From Caenorhabditis elegans (lineage: Eukaryota > Nematoda > Chromadorea > Rhabditida > Rhabditidae): a stretch of DNA of 64,000 bases. The stretch spans positions 7,192,001-7,256,000 of the forward strand of contig NC_003284.9 of NCBI RefSeq assembly GCF_000002985.6. The letters run 5' to 3'. A program made the translations under genes and the position numbers. Shown piece after piece: positions 2,580 to 56,400 of the stretch (positions within the stretch are counted from its first letter, which is position 1; the number at the start of each line of letters is the position of its first letter). Under the pieces are notes generated by a model. That model saw nothing but the letters and a program-made list of their open reading frames with translations. It made no database searches and was not told the origin of the DNA.

Positions 2580-5500
2580 ATGACTATATACCAACATTTG
2601 CTAATTCTTTGGTCCAGTTTGTTTGGTGAGTTTTTTTTACATTTCTGGGAATAAATCAATGAAAAAACTTTTTAGCATCGACATTTGCTGGAACAGCCGA
2701 GGAAGTTGCAAAACATTTAGAGTTGGGAAGTCAGTTCTTAGCCAGAGTAAGATTTTTATTCTTATTTTTGAAAATCATACTAATTTTTTCAGGCACAATT
2801 TGCGGATGCGCTCACACAATACCATGCGGCTATTGAACTCGACCCAAAAAGTTATCAGGCAATCTACAGACGGGCCACTACTTATTTGGCAATGGGTCGT
2901 GGAAAGGCAGCGATTGTAGATTTAGAACGTGTCTTAGAGTTGAAACCTGACTTTTATGGAGTAAGTTTGGAACTTTTTTGAATCACTGAGAGTTTCATCA
3001 ATTTTCCGTTATTTGCTTAAACATTTCAATAGATATATATTAGAGTGCAATTTTTCAAAAAAAAAAAACATATTTTAACTTTAGGCCAGAATTCAACGAG
3101 GAAACATTCTTCTCAAACAAGGAGAACTAGAAGCCGCAGAAGCTGATTTTAACATTGTGGTGAGAACTAGTCCCAACTTAGAAAAAAACATAAATAAACT
3201 TTTTTCAGCTAAACCACGACTCATCCAATAACGACGTTCAAGAAAAAACAGCTCTGATTGAGCAGCATCGTCAGCTTCGTCATCAAATCAAATCGGCGTA
3301 TGCAGGAGGAGATTGTGCAACTGTTGAGGAATATATCAATCATATTATTGAGATCCAAGTGTGGGACGCGTCTCTTTACAGAATGCGTGCCAAGTGTTTG
3401 GAAGAACGTGGAGAACTCAAGAAGGCTATCCATGACATGCGAATTGTATCCAAACTGAGCACGGATAGTACGGACACCATGTTTGAGACCTCAAAGCTAT
3501 TATATACAGTTGGAGATTTGGAAGAATCTTTAAAGTGAGTTAAATTTAAAAAATACGAAGCAGAGGTTTTCGAAATTATACGGAAACCAGAGAATTAGCT
3601 TAGCAAACATCTCAGCCAGGTTTTCTCGGCAGCTGAGTTTGGCAACCAAATACTAACTGATTAAGATTATTATATAATAACCAGCCGTGGACCGCACCTC
3701 CGGCGCGGCCCCCGACTTCTGGAGCTAAAAACCATTTTTTCTGAAACTACCGTAATCATACAGTACTCCTACCGTACCACCATTGTACCACTACAGTACC
3801 CCGACTATATCCCTACACTAACCCCAACTCACTATCCCTCCAGAAGCTAAAACTTCGCAGACTACAAAGACTACATAGACTACAAACTATGGACAAACGG
3901 AATAAGCGCTTTGTATATAGTAAATGATTATGATAATTATGATTGATGATTATGATAACTGTATAATAATTCAACTTGTCAAATCAAAAATCATATGGAA
4001 ATGTAGACAAATATTTGATTGATTCAAAATTTTAATTAATTTTCGTTAAAAAATTCAATGAAGACCCCCTAGTGTTTGAAAATGGGTCGGTTACCAAAAA
4101 GGTTCCAAAAACCGGCAACTTTCTTGACTTTAAAAATCACATTTGGCAAGAACCTTTGGAATTCGAACTTTGTACTTAGATTTACAATAATTATAAATTA
4201 TCATCACAAAATCGATAATGTGTGAACTTTTCAGCGTTATCCGAGAATGCCTCAAGCTGAACCCAGATCATAAAAGCTGCTACCCATTCTACAAGAAGCT
4301 TCGAAAAGTTGTCAAATCACTTGGTACGCTTTGAAAACTATGAAAATCTGTTTGAAAGTCTTTTTTACTTTTCAGAATCCATGAAAAAGAAAGTAGAAAA
4401 CAGTGACTGGATGGCTTGCCTCGAGGAAGGCCAAAAGACAATGAAGTTCGACCCGACGCCATCAGTACAACTCAACGTCTTCAGAATAACTAACAGGTGT
4501 CAAAGAGAAGCAGGTCATATCAGTGAAGCTATTGCCGAGTGCAATGAAATCCTTAATGATGACCCATCAGATGCTGATATTCTCTGCGAAAGAGCTGAAG
4601 CACATATCCTCGATGAAGATTATGATTCAGGTAGGATACATACTTTTCTTTAGTTTAACTTTTTAATATCGTTAGATTGTTTTCAGCCATTGAAGATTAT
4701 CAAAAAGCGACTGAAGTTAACCCAGATCATCGAGAGGCCAAGGAAGGTCTTGAGCATGCGAAGCGATTAAAAACGCAGGCCGGAAAAAGAGATTACTACA
4801 AAATTCTTGGTGTAAAACGAAATGCGAGCAAACGCGAAATTACAAAGGCCTACCGAAAACTTGCTCAAAAGTGGCACCCAGACAACTTCTCAGACGAGGA
4901 GGAGAAGAAGAAGGCTGAAAAGAAATTCATTGACATTGCGGCCGCTAAAGAAGTTCTTCAAGACGAAGGTTTGCCACTTTTTCACCTATGTTTTGTGTTA
5001 ATACAAATATTCTCAAAAAAAGTTTAGGCGAAAGAAATGCTAATTGGACTGCTTTGTGTCACCATTTCTTTTCATGGCGTATTGTATCATTTTGATCATC
5101 AATTTTGTTTTGCGATGTATCATCGCCATAGACGTTTTAAAAGCAACAAAGATTGTATTAAAGACAACAATAGTCTAGTCTGTAAATATTACGGTTTTTA
5201 TGTTTTCCAGAGAAACGACGTCAGTTCGATCAAGGAGTTGACCCACTGGACCCTGAGGCTCAGAGACAAGGCGGAGGACATCACGGAGGGTAAGGGATCA
5301 AACGAAAATATCAGTAGACATTTGCGTTTCATCAAAAAGTGAAAGCGGTGTGGCAATTTTGTGAATGTTGTAGTTGATTGTTACCTGTTAAATGTTAAAA
5401 TCGGAATATGAGACATGTTTCGTATTTCTAATAAGCATACTTTACTGAACTTTCAAAAATAACTAGAATTGGAAGTAAGACGTATGTATCAAAGCAATAC

Positions 5501-5818
5501 ATATCTCACAGTGTCTTAGATACTTAGGAATATATTTTTAAAGGACAATCAGTTCCTTAAGTTTGATGTTTTGCGGATCTGGGTGTCTGCTGGTGCTCTG
5601 ACTATGATTTAATATTAGTTAGGTACTATTGAGAAAAATATTTATTACTTCAATTTCCACAGCAATTTATTTTAAATGTTGCTGGAACTAAACCTCAATT
5701 TTTATTATTAAAAAATAATTTAATTTATTTCAGATTTGGTCACGGCTTTCCACACGGATTCCATCATTTTGGCGGCGGTGGCGGTGGCGAACACTCTTTC
5801 AAATTTAACTGGGGATAA
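2580..5818 (+). CDS. dnj-7: ER TPR/J-domain co-chaperone (p58IPK/DNAJC3 type)
   Basis: Ten exons: 2580-2625, 2676-2746, 2793-2960, 3085-3159, 3209-3534, 4235-4323, 4376-4630, 4687-4968, 5211-5289, 5734-5818; 491 residues, close to human DNAJC3. A hydrophobic N terminus (about 1-20) is a signal peptide for the ER lumen. Tandem TPR repeats fill about residues 25-370, with TPR signatures such as [22 protein letters not shown] domain follows at about 378-445 ([21 protein letters not shown], with the HPD triad that stimulates Hsp70). The tail is rich in Gly and His and ends HSFKFNWG. The family binds unfolded clients in the ER lumen and hands them to BiP. No KDEL-type signal is seen, as in the vertebrate protein. 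Start chosen as the first ATG after a trans-splice-like acceptor. The gene name is from memory of C. elegans and agrees with the sequence. Confidence 0.93.
3640..3860. repeat. dispersed-repeat-like block in dnj-7 intron 5
   Basis: The 700-base intron 5 (3535-4234) holds a GC-rich tract (GCCGTGGACCGCACCTCC, about 3684-3701) followed by a run of TACCGTA, TACAGTAC and CCTAC motifs unlike the flanking AT-rich intron. This style is common in dispersed C. elegans repeats. The family name is not known to me. Confidence 0.4.
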
Positions 5819-6300
5819 ATGTGTCATTTCATCATCTTCTGCCAGTATCTTCGTCTCTAGGAACCATCAATAATTATTATCCAACATTTTCTTGTATTCT
5901 TCATTGTGTGACCGGGGTTTAAGACTAGCTCCTTCCAAGACTAGTCGGTGATAATTTATGTAATTTTATTTATCTTTAACTAGAAAAAACAACAAAAACT
6001 GTCTGGGTTTTTTTCTCAACTAAACAGGTTTCAAAATGGTGGAATCTTTTAGCCCATCTCTCATCTGTGGCATCAAGAATGTATCTTCCCGTTTCCTACC
6101 TTTCTCATGTTTTCTCACTTTTTTCCTTTTCAGACGCCCGTTCGTGACACGCATTTTTTGAAAATTTTGTAATCTTGTTCATTGTTTTCTACATTTCTAC
6201 GGCTATTTTGTGTTTGGATAATTTACATATTCTACATCCCACAGACTGAATATGTTGCACTGCTTTAAACTAATAAATACTGTGTAAATTTTTTATGTTC
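5819..6300 (+). terminator. dnj-7 3' UTR with AATAAA
   Basis: Noncoding sequence follows the TAA. A canonical AATAAA at 6272-6277 is the likely polyadenylation signal, giving a 3' UTR near 470 bases. Confidence 0.6.
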
Positions 6301-6713
6301 AAAATCCCTTCCTGATCAACGACAAAACAAATTAAAAACATTTCACGAGTCTGCAATCTACTAAAATAGTTGAACTAGACTCTATTTTCTAATCGTGAAC
6401 ACTGCTGAAAAAAACAACGACAGCAGGTCTGTGTTCAAAACAACCAACCATTTTTTTACTTTCAAAACACTTGTGTTTTTGTCTGAAATCAATTAAAAGT
6501 GATCTATAAAAAATTGTGTTTTCAGTTTTATCGGACTGCTTTAATTCCAACCGAATTGTAAGGGAAGTTATTTGAAAAGTGAACCCAAGTCTTTTTGGAA
6601 AAAAGGTAACTTTTGATAATAAGTTAGCAGTTTTTAGTTAAGAATAAATATAATAAATCAATTAGACGATTGTATACCGCCGCAAGACAAGAATACGAAT
6701 TTTCAGAGATGTA

Positions 6714-7003
6714 CTCGGCAAAACGCTACTCCTAGAGCGCGGACAGGGCGCGACTAATTTACGGGCTCGCGCTCCAGTCACACGTTTTTTGGCGTTCCTT
6801 ACGCGCCACATCCGCGCTCTAATCACGACTGCTCCACGCGCATTCCGAATTTGAAAAATTCTTTCGAAATTCTGTGCGTGCGGCTAGGACGCGATCAGAG
6901 CGCCAACATGGCGCGGAAGGAGCGCAAAAAAACAAGTGACTGGAGCGCGAACCCGTAATCTAGTCGTGCCCCGTCCGCGCTCCAGGAGGAGTAATTTGCC
7001 GAG
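6714..7003. mobile_element. foldback (palindromic) repeat, about 290 bp
   Basis: The left arm begins CTCGGCAAAACGCTACTCC and the right arm, read in reverse complement, begins CTCGGCAAATTACTCCTCC. Both continue with GAGCGCGGAC, then TTACGGG, then CGCGCTCCAGTCAC, over more than 100 bp per arm. The centre (about 6838-6890) is itself an imperfect palindrome around CGAATTTGAAAAATTC. It is far richer in GC than the flanks. No ORF is present, so it would be a nonautonomous element. Confidence 0.8.
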
Positions 7004-7505
7004 TTGGTAGGAATTTGTATTATTCACCTAGCCTAATATTAAAAATATTTTTAAACAAACTTTTTATACAGTCCAGTGCTAACATACCAGATTAAAGATG
7101 AAGTAGCAAACTGTCAAATATTATCTCAGATATCCAAAAAATCCTCTATAGGCCAGATTTCATACTATTTTCATGAAAATTCAATAGTTATGGCTGTTTA
7201 AAAGTAAGAAAAATACCTACATTTAGCTGAAAAGCTCGAATTCTAGAAATTTCACAAATTGGATTGTAAAAAAATTAGCGTTTAGTTAAGTTATTGTATA
7301 TTTGGTTCTTATTCTGCATTTTTGATTCATGGATTTTTTTGGCGAGAAACATCCAAAAGTTGTTTAGGTGTCTATCGACTGTAATCAAAGATAAAACTAA
7401 AGATAAACGATCAGAATACAAAAAAATGTGATTGAATACAAGTCACAACAGTGTTTACAGTGACATTGTGCCAATATGGAAATTGAAAAAAAAATTAGTC
7501 CTATC

Positions 7506-7802
7506 GTGCCAAACTGACCAAATATCATAGTAAAACTTCTCGAACATTTTGTGAAAGACTTTTATTTGCAAACAAGAAGTAGCGATTACTGATTGTTTGT
7601 CACTTTTCGAGAATATCATAGGTTTGTCGCATAGCTTTATCGCATGTTCGAATCACAAAAACGTTTGAATTTTAGTATTTGAAACGTGAGTAGACCATAA
7701 AATTAGAAGATTTTTTTATTGAAGGTTTTCTACTGAGAGACTACTACTTTTTGAAGGAAAAGAGAAAATTCTAAAAAAATTGGAAAGTTTTAATATGCTA
7801 CT
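7506..7802. mobile_element. MITE-like repeat, copy A
   Basis: It starts GTGCCAAACTGACCAAATAT followed by CATAGTAAAAC. The same order of motifs (CAAATATCATAGTAAAA, TTTGCCACTTTT-like, TTCGAAT, GTAGACCATAAAATT, GAGGATATTTT-like) recurs at 24012-24319. The right end (GTTTTAATATGCTAC) is a decayed inverted copy of the left end. No ORF. Confidence 0.6.
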
Positions 7803-7974
7803 TTTTCATTTTTGCAACATAGAAGTATTTTAATACAATTTCCTCCCGGATGTTACTCTACCTTTGATGTCACTTTTTTTGCAAAAAAACTCTCAATTAC
7901 TGGACACGTTCCACGGTATTAACAAAGAGTTACGAAATTAGATTTTTGTTTGTTTTAATACTCGACAGTACACA

Positions 7975-38888: not shown

Positions 38889-40466
38889 TTAAGCAGCCTT
38901 CTCGAGGGCGATGAGGTGGGCAATTCCGTCGTACATTTGCTTGACGGCCTCGAACTCGGTGAGTCCAAGACGAGCCTTGTTGGAGATGTCGTAAACTCCT
39001 CCCTCAGACTCGGAGTGTTCTCCGTGGATACCACGGATTTGAAGCTTGAGTCCATCGCAGATAGACTTGAAGTCTGGCTTGGCCGAGATCTTTGGAAGGC
39101 GGATGTGGACGGAGGCGCGGACGGTGGTTCCCAAGTTGGATGGGCAGAAGGTGAGCCATCCGAGACGGTCGTCACGGGAGAATGGAGCTTGTTTCTCGAT
39201 GGTCTTGACTCCCTTGATGAGACGCTCCAAGACTTGTCCGACGTTTCCTCCCTCTTGCATGGAGATGATACGGAGATGGTCCTCCTCGTTGCACCAGATA
39301 AGGAAGGTCTTCTGGTTGTTGTGGAAGATTCCACGTCCCTTTGGCCAATAACGGCAAGCGTTGGCGGCTTGAAGGAATCTGAAGAACATTTATGTTGTAG
39401 GAACACTCGAACCAATTAGTGTTATCTTACCTGTCTCCCTCCTTGAAGAGGAAGTGATCCTTGATGAGTTGATCTTGGATTTCCTTGGTCATTCCATCCA
39501 GAGGGAAGTACTTTCCAGCGAGCTCTGGGTCAGTGATGTTGTCAAAGATAGCCTTGACCTTGGATTCCATCTCGAGGTAGTTGGCCTCAGAAAGGCATGG
39601 GTTGAATGGGTATCCTTGGAGGGAACGTCCGCAACGGATTCTGGTGGAGTTGATGAACTTTCCTTCTGGGTCAAGATCAACGAGAGCAGAAGTCTTTCCC
39701 TCTCCGAGGTCGGTGTTTGGCTGCTTGGCATCTGGAGCGAATCCGTTGTGGTAGTCCTGAAAAATGAATTGTTCTTTTTAATTGTTCATCGACTGACGTC
39801 AAAGTGTTTGCGAATCGGCAGATGGTCATTTTTAATAACTGTTGGCGCGACGTGAACCGCAAATAGAGTTAGTTACTTTGGGAGCGAGGCCATTGCGTTT
39901 ATGTGCTAGTTTCGGTCACTCAATACGCTAGTAATCCCATTTGAAATTGCGCCGCGTCTTTTTTCCTTGTTTTCTAGTCTATTTCCCTACTATAGCATTG
40001 GAATTTCTCTTATTCATCATTATTTGCCTTCTTGACTATCATGTAAATGGCATTTGATTGTGAAAAGAGCGTCATGATGAGGCAAATCGATACCTGGATC
40101 AGGGGGTCGAAGAGTGGCTTGAAGAGAGTGTAGGCCTCGGCATCTGGGGCGTAGACTCCGACTCCTGAGTCCAAGTTGGCAACTCCGGATTGAATGACGT
40201 CGAGAAGGTTAGCTCCGAGCTTGGTCTTCTTGTCCTTGAGTTGGTCAACAACCTCCTTGGTCAAGTACTTCTTAAGAAGAGAGTGGCACTCTGGGGCAGC
40301 CTGAAAATGATATGTGTTGAATAAGGAAATGATAACAAGTAAAGATAGAACATACCTGGAGCTTGGCATAGCCCTCCTCAATTTTGGCGATCACGTCTGG
40401 GGAAACCGACATTCCTTCTTGCGCTTGGACACAGTGAAGTGAGGTCGAGTAGGCCTCTCGCAGCAT
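38889..40466 (-). CDS. F46H5.3: arginine kinase (phosphagen kinase)
   Basis: Minus-strand exons 40356-40466, 40094-40300, 39431-39756, 38889-39378; 377 residues. It transfers phosphate between ATP and arginine to buffer cellular energy. Seen: N-terminal helical domain with the guanidino-specificity stretch [19 protein letters not shown]; the [10 protein letters not shown] nucleotide-binding segment; [14 protein letters not shown]; the reactive-Cys motif [14 protein letters not shown]; a C terminus LIALEKAA. All catalytic landmarks are present and the length is usual for the family, apart from a short N-terminal extension before MSVSPDV. The frame is also open from the ATG back to an acceptor at 40485, so an upstream exon could add residues. 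Codon use is highly biased (GAG, AAG, CTC), a sign of high expression. The sequence name is from memory of the worm arginine kinases. Confidence 0.93.
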
Positions 40467-45190: not shown

Positions 45191-47009
45191 CTCCGCGTAA
45201 TAAAACTTTGAGTTTTTCCGAGTTATTTGAAAATTGAATGATTTGGGGATTTTCTAAAACAAGAGAATTTGGAAAATACATTTTTACAAATTATATTGAA
45301 AAGTAGAAAAATAGAACATTTAACTAAAAATTTATAATTTAGACAATATTCAAGTTGAGAAAAATGTTTTTAAAAAATGGTGGATTTTATCAAGATAATT
45401 TAATTCTCAATCTAGACATAAACATCAACCTACTTGTGATATTTTTAGCTATGAACATAATCACCAAGCTTTCCAGAGTCTTTTTTTCTATTTTACAAAG
45501 TTTATTTCACTGCATTGATTGCGCGAAATCAAAATTGGAATAAACTCCAAAAATACCAGATTAACAAACAAATTATGTATCGTGTCACCAAATAAAAAAC
45601 TATTGTTGCTGGAATTAAACAAAAATATAATTATTGAAATAGGCTCATACCTATTACAGTTGGTTCGAACGAACACAATGTTTTTTTGGGAGTGTAAACA
45701 AACAAAAAGAGCCATTAACGTTAATTTGAATACTGAAAGTATATTTTTGTCAGCAATCGAATAGACATTGTGCAATGGGAATTTGACTGCGTTTTCATTT
45801 GCAGGTGTTTCAAAATGTTATATATCAGACAAAAATAAAGTTGCCTTTTTACCTTTTGAAAAGATTTTTGATCAACACATTTTTTAATGCAAAACTTTCA
45901 TATTATTTTTCTGCGAAAAAAAAACAAATGTCGAAAAAAAATTTGTTGAAAAATAAGCCACACACAAAGATGGAACACATTGAAAACACTCAGCACACAT
46001 GCGAAGCCTTTAATTAAAATATTTCTTGCACATTCTCAATTATTCGTCATTTTCATTTTTATCTCAAGTCTTTCAATTTTGCAAATTTTAGACTCCAAGT
46101 ACTAACACCTGATTACTTTAAAAAAATATATATTTTTCTAGTGGTGAATATGGAAATGTGTTTTAAAGTTTGAAATTTTTGAAAACGTGTAGGACGTCAG
46201 TTTGAATAGCACATTTTCATAATATTTTTGAATATTTTGATTTTAACTTTTTGAAAAAAAAAACATTTAAATAAAAGATATAGGACAAAAAACTTTTCTG
46301 TAAATTAATTAATTTATCTTGGAAAAAATTAGATCTTCAACAAACTTTTACATTTTCCAAATTTGTTTGTTTGTTGATTTTTTTCTAAAGTTAATCAATT
46401 AATGCGCAAAAACACTATTTTAAATAAAAGAGGATGGAACTTATTAATTGAATTATTTGCTCCTTACTTGATTGCTGAGATTTCAATCAAGTACATAGTT
46501 AGAGTACTGCAAAAATTGTGCCCGAAAGTATATGTTAACTTCTTTATAATTTTTTCATAAAACGCCATATTATGTATTGAGGGTAGTTGTCAACGTGAAA
46601 CAAAACCACTGCAAAGTACCTACCAAAAATTGTGACAATACTCTCGAGCATCGATGTAACATCTTCTATTGAAAAATTTAATTCGGAAAATTGAGAAAAA
46701 ACAACCAATTATTAAAAATTAAGTAAAAAAACTTTACATATTGAACAAAAGTTATTTGAAATCTGAATTAATATTAACCGAAAATATTCATTCACATCAT
46801 GGCAATGCCAAAAGTCCCGAAAAAATTCAGAATCTTCACAATTTTCTAAACACAATCTAGTGAATAGAGTGGTTAACTGCATAAGTTTGAATGGAGTGGT
46901 ATGTAATACAAACAAGAAATAAAGATACAAAAAATGAGGAGAAGTAAATGGAAACAAAGTTGACAGGTAAGAAAAAATAATTCAATTTAAGTGATCAAGG
47001 GAATAATTA
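45191..47009. other. AT-rich intergenic
   Basis: Nothing recognised except simple A/T runs. The part next to 47009 is the 3' UTR of the CBM48 gene. Confidence 0.45.
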
Positions 47010-50000
47010 TTATTCGACAAAAATAATGTTATTCTGTCCGCCCAAACCGTTTGGCACCTGTTGATAGTCGCTCGACGTCGCCCATTCGCCATTGATCATG
47101 AATCGGAACTCGTGTCTAAAATTATTACTTGAAATTTGTGTTTTGAATTTGAATGTTGTTACCTTCCACGCGTCAAATTGACCGTGACTCCTTTCTTGCC
47201 GCTAACCAGTTTCTCGCATTTCAATGTGCATTTCCAGTTGATAAAACTTCCCTGAAAAATCAAATGAAGACCTATTTGGCAAAAAAAAACTTACCGTCAA
47301 GTAAACTTCCTGCTCTGTGTTCGAAATGGTCAACGTTACATTTCTTCCTTCGTTAGCTCCCCCAAAAATGAATGGATTGGCTCCGGCGAATGGCAGGGCT
47401 GAGACAAGTGGGATGGATGGGATGGCTCCGGTGAAACATGGCTGGTTACTTCCGCTGCAAATACTTGGAATAGTGATATCAAGAGAACCACTGGTATAAC
47501 TTACTTGGCAAGGTTCCAAGTTCCTTGGTTGCTTTGGCTAATGGTGAATCCGTCGGTGGGAATGGTCATGGTGCTGGAGTGACTCCTAAATTATTGGAAT
47601 TTCGATTTCGAATGAAATATTGCTTTGGATGAGGAACACTATATTCACACCGTCAAATACACTGTACACTCGTTTCAATTTTTAAAAATTAAATAAGAAA
47701 AACAAAACATAGTTAGTATTGTTTTCAATTCAACTACTCCGCAAATTTCAGAAAAAAAAATATAAAGTGCATTGCTTTCCAGACGTTAAGTTACAAGTAG
47801 TTCAATAAAATCTGTATTCCTTACCTCACTTCCTGTATTAACCTAAAAATGAAATATGAAAAAATTCTTTAAAGTTTCCTATCTGTTATTTTGAAAATTT
47901 ATTCAGTTTTTGATTTTTATAAAGTCCTTTTTTGGGTAATTCTAGAAAGTGATCAAAGATGTTCATGCAATTTTTCGTTTTTATTTTTATGTAATGAAAT
48001 GATTTACAAGCGCCGTTTTTGATATTTTAAATTCATGAAACATTCAATCTCGTATTGCTCTGACCCCAACTCCAAAGAAAACTCACTGATCATTAAGGCT
48101 TTGAATCTTCGAGTTTGCCGTGTCAAGCAAATTTCTCTGTAGGGCAACAGAGGATTCCAACTCGCCGACCTTCCACTTTGCATCGTTCCACCATTGGGAG
48201 AGCTCACCGAGACGCCACTCCAGCTTGCTCTTCTCTTCGTTGATCTCCCAGACACGCTTCTCGCTGTCCTTCAGCATTTTTTCAGCGTGTGAGGTGTCTG
48301 CTCTGGCCCTGAAAGAAAACCCTAAATTAAAAATTGCTTGTCATTTCAATGCCTTACTTCAATTGTTCAGTGATTCCCTTCAAATATCCGTTCTCCTGTT
48401 CCAACTTGCCGACACGTTCGTTCGCGTACCAGTTAGCCTCCTGGAGCTGTTGCTTCTCAGCCTCAGCTTGACGAATTGAATTGTTGGCCAAGCCGAGTTT
48501 AACCTCTAGTGCTCTGACGGCGGTACTCTTCACTTCTTCATGAGCGTCGGAGTTGAGTTGATTCTCTAAGAATGTTACCCTAAAATAATTTTTTTTCCGA
48601 TTAACTCTTGAACTTTTAAATGTTTTACTTGTCTTTTGCGTTCTTCAAATAATCTTGATTCTCGGAGAATTTGGTCTCAAGATCCTTATTTTTCGATTCA
48701 ACAGTGGCCAACTTGTTTCGAAGCTCTTCAATGACATTGTGCAAGTTGCTGAAAGAACTAATTAAATAATAACGTGAAATGTGCATTTTGATTATCATAC
48801 TTGATTTCTTCATCGTGATCCTGGGATCGTTTCTCGTCGATTTCCGAATCAATTCGAACGAATTTCTCTTCAGAATCAGCCGATTGGGCGGATTCCAACT
48901 TTTTCTCAAGATTTTTGACTTTAAGTTGAGCGGCTGACAAGTCGGATTTGTATTCTTTCACTCTGTTAAGTTGAAAAATTAAAAAAAAATTTAAACATAT
49001 TGAGAAATTAGGGTTATTACCTAATTTTCAGCTCATCATTTCGGTTTCTCAGCTTTTCCAGCTGTCGGTCGTTCTTTTCCTTTTCGGAGTCTCTTCCCTC
49101 GCTCTCCTCGCTGATATTCACATTTTCAGGCTGAGCATCAAACTGGCTTCTTGGCTGATTTTTCTTTGAAGTACTACGAGCACGGGTCTTTCCAGCTGCA
49201 TACACCTTTTGTGACCTTCCACCAAGTCCCGCGGCAGCTAAAATAATGCAAATTCTCTGTTTGTTTCAATTTCGCCGGTCAAATTTGTCACAAATGTACC
49301 ACTCGGAGACCGACAACATGTTTACAAGTTTGAATTGGACAAAAAATGTCAGATCGCTTTTGAAGCATTTGGAGATTTCACAGTTTACACAGCTGCGATC
49401 GTGTTTTGATTGAGCAGGAAAAAAATTAGCTGGTACTTCAAAACTGTTACAAAGCTATGCACTTAAAAAAACACGAAATACTACTTTGGCTTGATGATCA
49501 GATTTTTATGTTACTCAGTCAAATATGTCAAAATTTCAAGAATATTAAAACCAATATTTTGAATTGGTAGAACATTAAACAAATTTTATACAGTAATCCA
49601 TTTTAAATTGCCAGCTCTGGAAAATAGTGGCAACTATTGGGGCAATAAAGAAAATTTTCACTGTTAACGGAAAATTCGTTTTTTTTTTTGAAATGGGCTT
49701 CATGTTTGGATTTGCCCCATGCATGATACTCATTCCTAAACGATTTTGCGAATATAGGTCTTTTTAACCCCAAATTCCACGTAAACCAAATAGAACCAAT
49801 TACCGAAAAGCTTCTGCACAGCTGAAATGTTCTTTTCAAAGGCGTCATTGGCCTTCGAATAGTCGGCAAAATGGGTTCCGTGGCGTGATCCGTGTGCTGC
49901 AAGAAAGAAAAACTTAGACACCGTCGCAAATTTATGGTTCTTGTTTTCCAATTAATGTTTTCTCTCGTATCGACAAGTCGTCTCTCACCTAAATGGATAA

Positions 50001-50791
50001 AAATCGGCACTGAATCCCATCCGTTTGGAGGTGGGTACACCTTGCCGGTGTTGTTGTCGAACCTTGAAATAGAAAAATGTTAAACGTTTTGTTGACTGAC
50101 TGACTGGAACTTTGGATTTGGATAATGCTAATCGACAATGGGAAAGCAGCAAATGTTGTTCTAATATAATCATATTTCTGCGCGGATTGTCTATTTGTAA
50201 ACATGTACATGCATGTTCTAAACCGGTTTCGGATTATCAACTGATTTTTGGGAAAATTGTTTACGTTGACCTATCACTTTGAATTAGACAATTCACGTTT
50301 CACCTGGTGTTAGGGTTAGGGTTAAAAAGAATTGTAAACTTTGATAAGACATATATACACAGTCATTTTTCATTTTGATGGAACGATGGCGCGCGCAATT
50401 CTTTTGTGTTGATCTGAGAACAAACGGTCGAGAATATAATGACTAAATTGACTACGGCAGGTGGCGGTTTCTCCTAATTGGTAACCCAGTGAACCGTTTA
50501 AAATGACGGGTATCGGAAGTGACACTTTGCAAGGACTACATCACTTACAGGAGAGCTTTTCTCTCTCCATCATCTCTGTAGTAGAGTCCATGTGCTCCTG
50601 GGACCACTGATTGGACGGTGGCAAAGTTTAGAGTGGCGTCCTGATCATGGCTCACTTGAACTGGCTCAATTTCGAGACGCACCCAGTCTGAAACAAAAAA
50701 TTTGTTGAAAGTGGTATTCCCTACAACGTGTAATATCAACATCAGTGGTGAACCTACTTGCATCTGGGATTTTGGTAGCAACATCCGCCAT
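47010..50791 (-). CDS. TDP-43 N-terminal-like / coiled-coil / CBM48 protein
   Basis: Minus-strand exons 50758-50791, 50549-50687, 49989-50062, 49804-49896, 49021-49237, 48801-48962, 48629-48748, 48358-48579, 48087-48308, (optional 47825-47842), 47505-47585, 47295-47454, 47163-47251, 47010-47115; 572 residues, or 578 with the microexon. Residues about 12-82 resemble the TDP-43 N-terminal oligomerisation fold (TVQSVVPGAHGLYYRDDGER ... NGWDSVPIFIHLG). About 110-400 is acidic/basic heptad-like coiled coil, including repeated Glu/Lys-rich segments and KLEWRLGELSQWW. The C terminus, about 480-572, is an AMPK-beta-type glycogen-binding module (VYLTGSFINWK ... GRHEFRFMINGEWATSSDY ... GQNNIIFVE). A self-assembling protein that binds glycogen or starch-like glucan is a fair inference; no enzyme domain is seen. 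Probably C. elegans F46H5.7 (memory, unchecked). Confidence 0.85.
47825..47842 (-). other. 18-nt candidate cassette microexon
   Basis: Between exons ending GATCA and starting GAGTCAC lies TTTTTAG|18 bases|GTAAGG on the gene strand. Inclusion adds exactly six codons (LIQEVR) and keeps the frame; skipping also keeps it. Splice sites are near consensus. Confidence 0.55.
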
Positions 50792-53419: not shown

Positions 53420-56400
53420 TTATACAACTGTAGGGTCACTGAATTCGGAGATGGTAATCTCGTTTCTTTGCCTAGATAGCATTGGCTTCAGGTGGGTCAC
53501 GAAACTCTCAAAGTTTTCCTCAACATTTCTTTGATACTCCTTCTGATCTTCCCCGATTAATTGACGACAAAGCTCAATAGCTTCCATTGCTTTACATTGC
53601 AAATGCCGAAAAGACAGACGGAGCTTGTTCTGAAGACGATCCACGGGTCGACCACGATCATCAAGCATTGCGTTGGCTAGGAACACATTGGCAATCTGAA
53701 AAATGAATGATTTAAGAACTCTCAAATACACCAAAAAATTCTTTCAGAGTTAACGATATTATTTGTAAATTTTTAAAAACTTGGGGCAACTTTTTGGCAG
53801 GCAACAGCATTAAACAGAGCCGGTCAAATGAATTGCCACGGAGATGGCAAAAATTCTGAGTAAGCGTTTAACAGCAAAATGTTGTCAAAAAATGTTAACG
53901 CCACCAGTTACTCTGATAAATTTTTTGCGCGCAGAAGGCATCAGCTGACCCACAAGCCAACCGGGCAGCCTTCACCTTTTTCACGGAAAAGGTTGGCAAA
54001 AAACAGTGAAATCTTGTCAAGAAGTTACATTAATCGAAGGCTTTCTGCGAAAGCAAAACGGTTTACAGTTGCTTTTTTTTGTATTGTGAGTGTTCTACAT
54101 TGTGAGTGTTCTACAATGATGTACGACCGAACATTTTAGCGTTTGACCAGTTTGGCAAGTTGCTGTACAACCTTAATGTGCATAACAAAACTGTAACTTC
54201 AAAATGTTCAATTCACAATATAACACAGTTTTTGATTCACAGTTGTATTCTTTTGATCCCAACTCTAAAAAACAGTATCAAAACTCTTGCTGAGAGTGCA
54301 ATCTGACTTTTGTTTAAAATCATATGATTCATTGTTAGCTCACCTCAAGTGGGCCCTGGTTTACTGTCGTTCCAATGGAACCTTGAATGAACATTGACAA
54401 CATTTTTGGATTTTTGTGCTGTGCGGCTGCTGAGAGTTCTCGCGTCTTTTTTTCAATGTCTTCAATTGCCACTTCGATTGGTGAAAAATCTTTCACACTT
54501 CGGTTCACAACTTGAAGGCGCGTTTTGATGTAGGGGAACCTAAAAGAAAACAAGATTCGTTGGCATTTTTAACAAAAATTCATGCACTTACGAGTTTTCT
54601 ACTGTCAAAATAGTACGCTTTTTGTACTGCGCGGCCAGCTCTCCCTGCGCTCGACCTTCCATTGTGTACGGAGCTTCGAAGTAGAATCTGGAAATAATCA
54701 GCTAATCGTTTTAGATAATTTATTTGTACTGTTACCTGTTGACATTATTTCTTCGCGTAAAATACGTAGTTCGTTCCATCTTCTCATTATCAGACAGGTA
54801 CACATCGACAAATGTGATTTGAATATATGCCTTTTCTGGATTTAATTTTTCCAGTTGAACTGGTTTTGAGTCTTTCAGCACAACAACATTTCCTTCTCCA
54901 TACATATTTGTGTAGAAAGTTTCCAACCTATTGCTGATTTCATTCAATTTCGAAAATGCAGATTCCTTAAAAAAAATATATTTGTGGGAATTATAACAAC
55001 TTTCTATTTTTACTTTGTAGACAAACTCTGCATTATTCAAGGCTCCAAATAGCTTTCCGTAAAACGCAACTCGGAAAAATGAACCAAAACATCTTTTATC
55101 AATTCCTGGTAATGGTGAGATCCATGCATCGGATTGATTTTCATAATATTCCCCAGTTTCTTTGATTTGATCAGCAGCAATACCTAATCTTTTGTGGGTG
55201 TGAGACACTCGGGAGTAGCTTTTAGTTGCATGATAGTACTTCAAAATGATCTTCGAGAAAGGGAACAGTAGTTCGTAAAGCTGAGCCTTCTCCAGAAGCG
55301 CAAAAGCCTTTTCCAAAATTTTAATCACACCAGCCTCTGTGAAGTGATAAGATTGAATGTGGTTCTCACTATCGGCGCTGAAAAATTAAAATCGAGGTAA
55401 TTTTAATTAAAAAATATTGAAAAAAACAAACTTTTTCAATGAGTTGAAATTCGTTTTAGACTCTTTGATAGCATTGGGTGTAATCTCAGAAAACGTGGCA
55501 GCTCCTTTAGATTCAAACGACAAGTTTTGATCTTTTTGAGCAATGTACTCAAATACAAGTGCACTTGCTTGAAGGTAGCTGTGGGCCGCTTCACAGAGAT
55601 TTCGCTGCTTTTCATGTCGTTCAGCCATGTTAAGAAGCCAAGTTATTCTGAAGAACAGTTCATTCAAATTTTCATTGCCAAAGTAAAATGGTCACCTCAA
55701 ATCTGGATTATTCGAGTATCCTTCAACTAGTTGATACATGAGGTCGATGGTCATTTCATAATCGTTAACATGCTCTCGCATTCTAACAGTACTCAACATG
55801 ATCTTCTGAAGGTTTGCAGTCAACTCTTGCATTTGTTCCGTTAGCTTTTTCTTTGCAGCTATATCAAATGTGTCGTCCTCAGCGGCAAGCTGATTGGCAA
55901 TCTGAAAATTAAAAACGACTGTGAATTTAGCAGTTTCAAACTTTTACAAACCTCCAAACTTCTGATCATGAATTCATCATTCACAAAAATATCGATGCCA
56001 CAGCTTCCAGATAGAAGAGTTGATAGTGCTGTTGAGAGAAAGGTTCGAGCACGTGTCAAGTTCCTATAGAGCTTGAAATTTTCTCTCAAGAAATGATACA
56101 GGCTAACAGTTGCCTGAAAAACGTTAAAAAATGGTTAACTCAAAGATCTAACTGACCATTGTTCTAACGTTCTCCAGCCTAGTTGACGAGCAATGGCGAA
56201 GAATTTGCTGAGAGAGTTCGGCACAAAGCTCGGGGTTTTGCTCCAAAATCATGTCTGGAAACTTGGCAAGGAAATTTTGTTGAGCAGCAAAAATCACTTC
56301 AAGGACCTGGTCGGAAGCGTTACAAGATAAACCGTGCATCTGAAAATGAGAAGTATTTTAGGTTGAGTATGCATGATGCATATTAGCCTTCCTAAAAGAT

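Follow-up and report, generated by a model that had tools for sequence, protein, structure and literature searches.

The gene at positions 50791 to 47010, on the minus strand of the window (the whole stretch of 64,000 nucleotides of Caenorhabditis elegans DNA that was analyzed), has a predicted product with a TDP-43-type N-terminal domain, a long coiled coil, and a C-terminal carbohydrate-binding module (CBM) of the AMPK-beta type. F46H5.7 is the most likely identity of this gene, and the name is used here. The presence in one gene of a self-association domain familiar above all from the disease protein TDP-43, a coiled coil and a CBM suggests a self-assembling glycogen adaptor and not an RNA-binding protein. 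By its predicted domains, the protein is neither TDP-43 nor an AMPK-beta subunit.

Both domains are familiar ones, and automatic annotation of the C. elegans genome probably already lists them. No publication on their combination was found, with a domain-name query that matched mostly other words, and the publications that name F46H5.7 do not discuss its domains in the excerpts available. The additions made here to the first-pass annotation of this DNA are a predicted paralogue on chromosome II that lacks the CBM, and an NPF motif that goes together with a published two-hybrid link to EH domains.

Results

Organization and identity of the gene

The coding region is predicted from splice sites to consist of 14 exons, all on the minus strand: 50791-50758, 50687-50549, 50062-49989, 49896-49804 and 49237-49021 (exons 1-5), 48962-48801, 48748-48629, 48579-48358, 48308-48087 and 47842-47825 (exons 6-10), and 47585-47505, 47454-47295, 47251-47163 and 47115-47010 (exons 11-14). 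It starts with the ATG at 50791 and ends with a TAA at 47010, the same limits as in the first-pass annotation. All 13 introns have GT..AG borders, and the joined sequence of 1737 nt encodes 578 residues with no internal stop, so the earlier claim that the exons join in one frame holds. Exons 5 to 11 are in phase 2 at every 3' end, and exon 10 is an in-frame microexon of 18 nt (47825..47842) that joins the coiled coil to the linker. A TTTTCAG acceptor is located just 5' of the ATG and would suit trans-splicing.

A search of the protein against Pfam, with the program hmmscan, finds two families over their cut-offs, TDP-43_N and AMPK1_CBM, both with scores about twice the cut-off. Ten other families match below their own cut-offs, and most of these are coiled-coil models. 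With the reversed protein as a control, neither domain is matched, and the single match (CBM32) is below its cut-off. No RRM or enzyme family is over cut-off for F46H5.7, in agreement with the earlier statement that the protein has no RNA-binding or catalytic domain. RRM is absent from the hmmscan list up to an E value of 1, against the two RRMs that mark orthologues of TDP-43 (TARDBP).

The window covers positions 7,192,001-7,256,000 of contig 6, which is presumably C. elegans chromosome X. The neighbors of the gene in the window include profile matches to ATP:guanido phosphotransferase (38889-39389, minus strand) and to DOCK-type DHR-2 (54732-55385, minus strand). The published annotation of F46H5.7, made by homology to yeast, has a wording that we take to fit Mdg1. 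This annotation, in a proteomic table, refers to G-protein pheromone signalling and a plasma-membrane protein (PMC6762213). Mdg1 has an AMPK-beta-like glycogen-binding domain (PMC5266329), and F46H5.3 is a putative arginine kinase (PMC12851583). The two neighboring stretches therefore make F46H5 the most likely clone, and the Mdg1-like annotation, together with the few places in the genome that match the glycogen-binding domain (four, to be read as at least four), leads to the name F46H5.7. As the name was derived in this way, the published findings on F46H5.7 could concern a neighboring gene instead.

The N-terminal domain

The TDP-43_N domain (Pfam PF18694) covers residues 19-81 and is encoded by exons 2 and 3, with one intron inside (49993..50667, minus strand). 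Its hmmscan score is 63.5 bits, with a cut-off of 27.1 and an E value of 1.7e-17. The motif PGAHGLYYR is located at residues 41-49, and the GW pair at 72-73. A phmmer search of PDB sequences with residues 1-113 gives ten matches, eight of which are to human TDP-43 (best E 0.0011), and the remaining two are weaker and unrelated. With a two-sequence profile of F46H5.7 and the chromosome II paralogue, all eight PDB matches are to TDP-43 (best E 1.2e-7). The scores, the motifs and the PDB matches confirm the TDP-43-type N-terminal domain that had been recognized earlier.

The ungapped phmmer alignment of F46H5.7 to TDP-43 is less favorable at the positions of the basic head than a gapped one, and the gapped alignment is preferred here since the strand retains its hydrophobic pattern in it. 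In the gapped alignment, position 48 of TDP-43 is matched with E53 of F46H5.7, beside the gap. The S48E mutant of TDP-43, which is presumably assembly-deficient, is present among the PDB matches.

The head-to-tail assembly of TDP-43 is mediated by an acidic tail and a basic head, and it is lost in the double mutants E17A/E21A and R52A/R55A (PMC5491494). A sixfold mutant that blocks head-to-tail assembly involves E14, E17, E21, Q34, R52 and R55 (PMC5656600). These positions were compared in a four-sequence alignment of TDP-43, TDP-1, F46H5.7 and the chromosome II paralogue. The equivalent residues in F46H5.7 are E19, Q22, D26, V39, K55 and L58, with identity or charge kept at three of the six positions (E19, D26 and K55) and lost at the others (Q22, V39 and L58). 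The paralogue has E12, E15, D19, A32, K50 and K53, and keeps identity or charge at five of the six. The TDP-1 residues are E, E, T, S, R and Q, with three kept. As TDP-1 is no better preserved than F46H5.7, a count of three does not by itself exclude assembly, and the interface residues of F46H5.7, as aligned, neither prove nor exclude self-association. With five positions kept against three, the paralogue is the better candidate to form a polymer, and F46H5.7 a possible partner.

The conserved segment and the coiled coil

The N-terminal domain is followed by a segment (residues 91-118, HFADYSKANDAFEKNISAVQKLFAAAGL; exon 4 and the start of exon 5; 49224..49873, minus strand) that is conserved in the chromosome II paralogue, with 14 of the 28 residues being identical (tblastn). 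Beyond it, a heptad-periodic and proline-free segment, roughly residues 165-427 in exons 5-9 (48087..49085, minus strand), is predicted to form a coiled coil. There is no proline in residues 165-432, and the heptad hydrophobic moment is 4.8 s.d. above that of 500 shuffles. This signal and the coiled-coil families matched below cut-off agree with the long coiled coil described earlier between the two ends. A genome search with the coil gives two matches, both in F46H5.7 itself.

Exons 8 and 9 have equal lengths (222 nt) and equal phase, but an origin by duplication was rejected, as their local score of 36 is reached by 241 of 2000 plain shuffles and by 1415 of 2000 heptad-preserving shuffles. 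The LIR-like pattern [WFY]xx[LIV] has six matches, at 13, 33, 73 and 79 (in or just before TDP-43_N), 220 (coil) and 561 (CBM). A GCAC...GCAC pair at 48739-48784 (minus strand) spans the 3' splice site of the in-frame, 120-nt exon 7, and could be a MEC-8 site. MEC-8 is reported to promote the inclusion of a cassette exon of F46H5.7 in touch neurons (PMC8934639).

The C-terminal CBM and the NPF motif

The AMPK-beta-type CBM (CBM48) covers residues 502-577 and is encoded by exons 12-14 (47016..47333, minus strand). It is defined by the Pfam profile (AMPK1_CBM, PF16561) and by alignment to AMPK-beta CBMs. The hmmscan score is 50.2 bits, with a cut-off of 26.8 and an E value of 3.1e-13, and the motifs FINW and FRFMINGEW are located at residues 517-520 and 547-555. 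Among the best 60 of 115 matches of the last 143 residues to PDB sequences, AMPK-beta CBMs are at the top (best E 1.2e-7), and the weaker ones include designed proteins, a pullulanase and antibody light chains. The earlier assignment of an AMPK-beta-like CBM48 is well founded on these results.

The residue at the position of AMPK-beta T148, which we take to be a further sugar contact, is G570 in F46H5.7. The residues of rat AMPK-beta1 that are critical for glycogen, W100, K126, W133 and N150 (PMC4032982), align with W520, R548, W555 and N572. Three of the four are identical, and the change of K126 to Arg is conservative. AKINbeta2 keeps the two tryptophans and not K126 and N150, and still binds starch (PMC4032982). 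Contact of the F46H5.7 CBM with glycogen is plausible from this alignment.

The closest CBM in the worm is that of a gene at X:13.757 Mb (32% identity over 74 residues, E 5e-15), followed by those of a gene at III:11.237 Mb (E 9e-8) and a chromosome IV gene (E 0.002). The genes on X and III are presumably aakb-1 and aakb-2. The CBM is one open stretch in these two genes, whereas it is divided over three exons in F46H5.7. The AMPKBI domain of AMPK-beta subunits is not found in F46H5.7 by hmmscan, and a profile search of the genome finds it only at X:13.758 and III:11.238 Mb. F46H5.7 is therefore not expected in an AMPK complex. A fourth AMPK1_CBM gene of the worm is located near 9.1014 Mb of chromosome IV (positions 5288-5560 of locus L010, plus strand), where an exon scores 36.5 bits over half of the profile. 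The exon is close to a reading frame that, by eye, resembles a cytochrome P450.

The linker before the CBM contains an NPF motif (residues 487-489; 47370..47378, minus strand), which is a possible EH-domain ligand. F46H5.7 is one of the 26 EH-domain interactors from a worm two-hybrid screen (PMC3570524, Table 2), 14 of which have an NPF motif (PMC3570524). According to the same source, there is an earlier report with the EH domains of ITSN-1, and the gene has no human orthologue and an unknown function.

The paralogue on chromosome II and the genome census

The genome searches covered an assembly of 100,286,401 bases in 7 contigs. TDP-43_N is found at three places. The first is a chromosome II gene whose RRM-like reading frames were recognized by eye and which is presumably tdp-1, and the others are F46H5.7 and a second gene of chromosome II. 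By profile, TDP-43_N is carried by at least three worm genes and not by tdp-1 alone. A genome search with CBM_48 (PF02922) gives no match. As worms should have a branching enzyme bearing this module, a profile search can overlook domains that are split over exons, and the genome has at least three TDP-43_N places and at least four AMPK1_CBM places.

The paralogue is located at G000:C2:7157041-7160847 (4041-7847 of locus L008), on the plus strand, and its spliced model has 12 exons and 517 residues in one frame. The TDP-43_N score is 72.8 bits, neither a CBM nor an RRM family is over cut-off, and there is no NPF. Its heptad signal (z 8.6) is stronger than that of F46H5.7. The two proteins have 36% identity in their aligned N-terminal regions, including the segment after the domain. 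A BLASTP comparison gives E 4e-20, with 25% identity over 310 columns, although this value is for a one-sequence database and is in part due to coil composition. The exon-level matches are weaker, with E values of 1e-4 and 8e-4 on 6500 bases. The coil of the paralogue also matches the ATG16 profile, with 33.3 bits against a cut-off of 33.7. A role in autophagy was dropped, since matches of this kind, with scores under the cut-off, are seen in 10 of 14 control genomes and at 16 places in C. elegans, and a WD40 domain is part of the published description of both worm ATG-16 proteins (PMC11581207).

The TDP-43_N domain, the following segment and the long heptad-periodic part are common to both loci, so the CBM is what F46H5.7 has in addition. 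F46H5.7 is not likely to be an artefact of merged genes. The best argument is that the paralogue, which is outside the window, shares the N-terminal join. The join to the CBM is predicted from phase and splice sites only.

Discussion

Our preferred reading, which is tentative and has somewhat less than an even chance, is that F46H5.7 is a non-catalytic coiled-coil glycogen adaptor, with the N-terminal domain in association, perhaps with the paralogue, and with EH proteins docking on it. The coiled coil would produce at least a dimer, and the oligomer would present several CBMs per complex, giving avidity and a joint grip on the glycogen particle. The TDP-43_N domain would add contacts, either weak ones between its own copies or, with greater likelihood, contacts to the paralogue, in which the acidic tail and the basic head are better preserved. 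Intersectin, Eps15 and other EH proteins would bind the NPF motif, and glycogen would thereby be tethered to endocytic membranes. We count in favor of the adaptor both domains over cut-off, the sugar contacts, the heptads, the five of six positions in the paralogue, the NPF motif and the listing among EH interactors. Against it we count G570 at the T148 position, the three of six assembly positions lost in F46H5.7, its listing with NXF-1, and the inferred gene name.

The first-pass annotation had predicted a polymerising scaffold on glycogen. This goes beyond the evidence, as glycogen contact is plausible but three of the six interface positions are lost. Homology to TDP-43_N and the identity or charge kept by E19, D26 and K55 at TDP-43 positions 14, 21 and 52 do suit self-polymerization of the domain head to tail as in TDP-43, with filaments coating glycogen, and three of six, as in TDP-1, does not exclude it. 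On the other hand, E17, Q34 and R55 of TDP-43 are replaced by Gln, Val and Leu, double changes at such positions abolish TDP-43 assembly, E53 occupies the place of an S48E change that is presumably assembly-deficient, and the ungapped alignment is still less favorable, so that we consider the model unlikely. A mixed head-to-tail assembly of the X and chromosome II proteins through their diverged TDP-43_N domains is more doubtful still. In such an assembly, the tail of the X protein would be usable and its head half-disabled, and the protein would serve as a cap or branch, recruiting glycogen by its CBM and EH-domain endocytic proteins by its NPF motif. If true, the TDP-43 assembly domain would here serve a purpose other than RNA biology, with assembly tied to glycogen.

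The yeast-homology annotation of F46H5.7, in the wording that fits Mdg1 (PMC6762213), would also suit a signalling scaffold, in which the CBM is a glucose-signalling or protein-docking module, like that of yeast Mdg1. This is improbable, as the sugar-contact residues are kept, and a module for docking alone could do without them. F46H5.7 is also listed in an NXF-1 immunoprecipitate, with few peptides (the last three columns give 3, 1 and 0; PMC6762213). Either mRNA export or noise would account for this listing, and the adaptor reading leaves it unexplained. A function in RNA metabolism, for which this listing and the TDP-43-like domain could speak, is nevertheless hardly credible, with so few peptides and with no RNA-binding family, RRM included, reaching its cut-off. 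It is very unlikely, moreover, that the two ends are mostly separate products, a short TDP-43_N-plus-coil form ending in intron 9 (47843-48086, minus strand) and an internally started CBM form. Read-through from exon 9 meets an immediate in-frame stop (CAG TGA), intron 9 has two AATAAA, M440 precedes the CBM and could start the second form, and the short form would resemble the paralogue. In addition, the 310 bases that follow the TAA (46700-47009, minus strand) lack an AATAAA, the next on this strand being at 45506. However, the AATAAA pair is at chance level (P of at least two, 0.185, by Markov resampling) and was rejected as an isoform signal, and all joins are in frame with GT..AG borders, exons 5-11 ending in phase 2.

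The adaptor reading can be compared with known systems. F46H5.7 shares the N-terminal domain with TDP-43 and worm TDP-1, but it has a coiled coil and a CBM in place of RRMs over cut-off. It shares the CBM with AMPK-beta subunits, but not AMPKBI. In comparison with the paralogue, which has neither CBM nor NPF, it keeps three rather than five of the six assembly positions. STBD1 is a non-catalytic glycogen-binding adaptor that is thought to tether glycogen to membranes. It has a CBM20 and an N-terminal membrane anchor, and is not known to have a TDP-43_N domain or a long coiled coil. By analogy, F46H5.7 may work like such a tether, with CBM48 instead of CBM20. Yeast Mdg1 and rice-blast Abl1 also have an AMPK-beta-like glycogen-binding domain without the C-terminal part of AMPK-beta, although this domain is described as N-terminal in Abl1 and is C-terminal in F46H5.7, and the excerpt available mentions neither TDP-43_N nor a long coiled coil for them (PMC5266329).

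In a 2025 review of worm models (PMC12820612), TDP-1 is described as the sole protein homologue of TDP-43 in C. elegans. Judged from the profile matches, this may hold for full-length TDP-43 and not for the N-terminal domain. The two further worm genes with TDP-43_N offer natural versions of this domain for studying association apart from RNA binding, in an organism where gene deletion is easy. If its CBM binds glycogen, F46H5.7 would be a candidate non-enzymatic glycogen adaptor of the worm, with a possible link to endocytosis.
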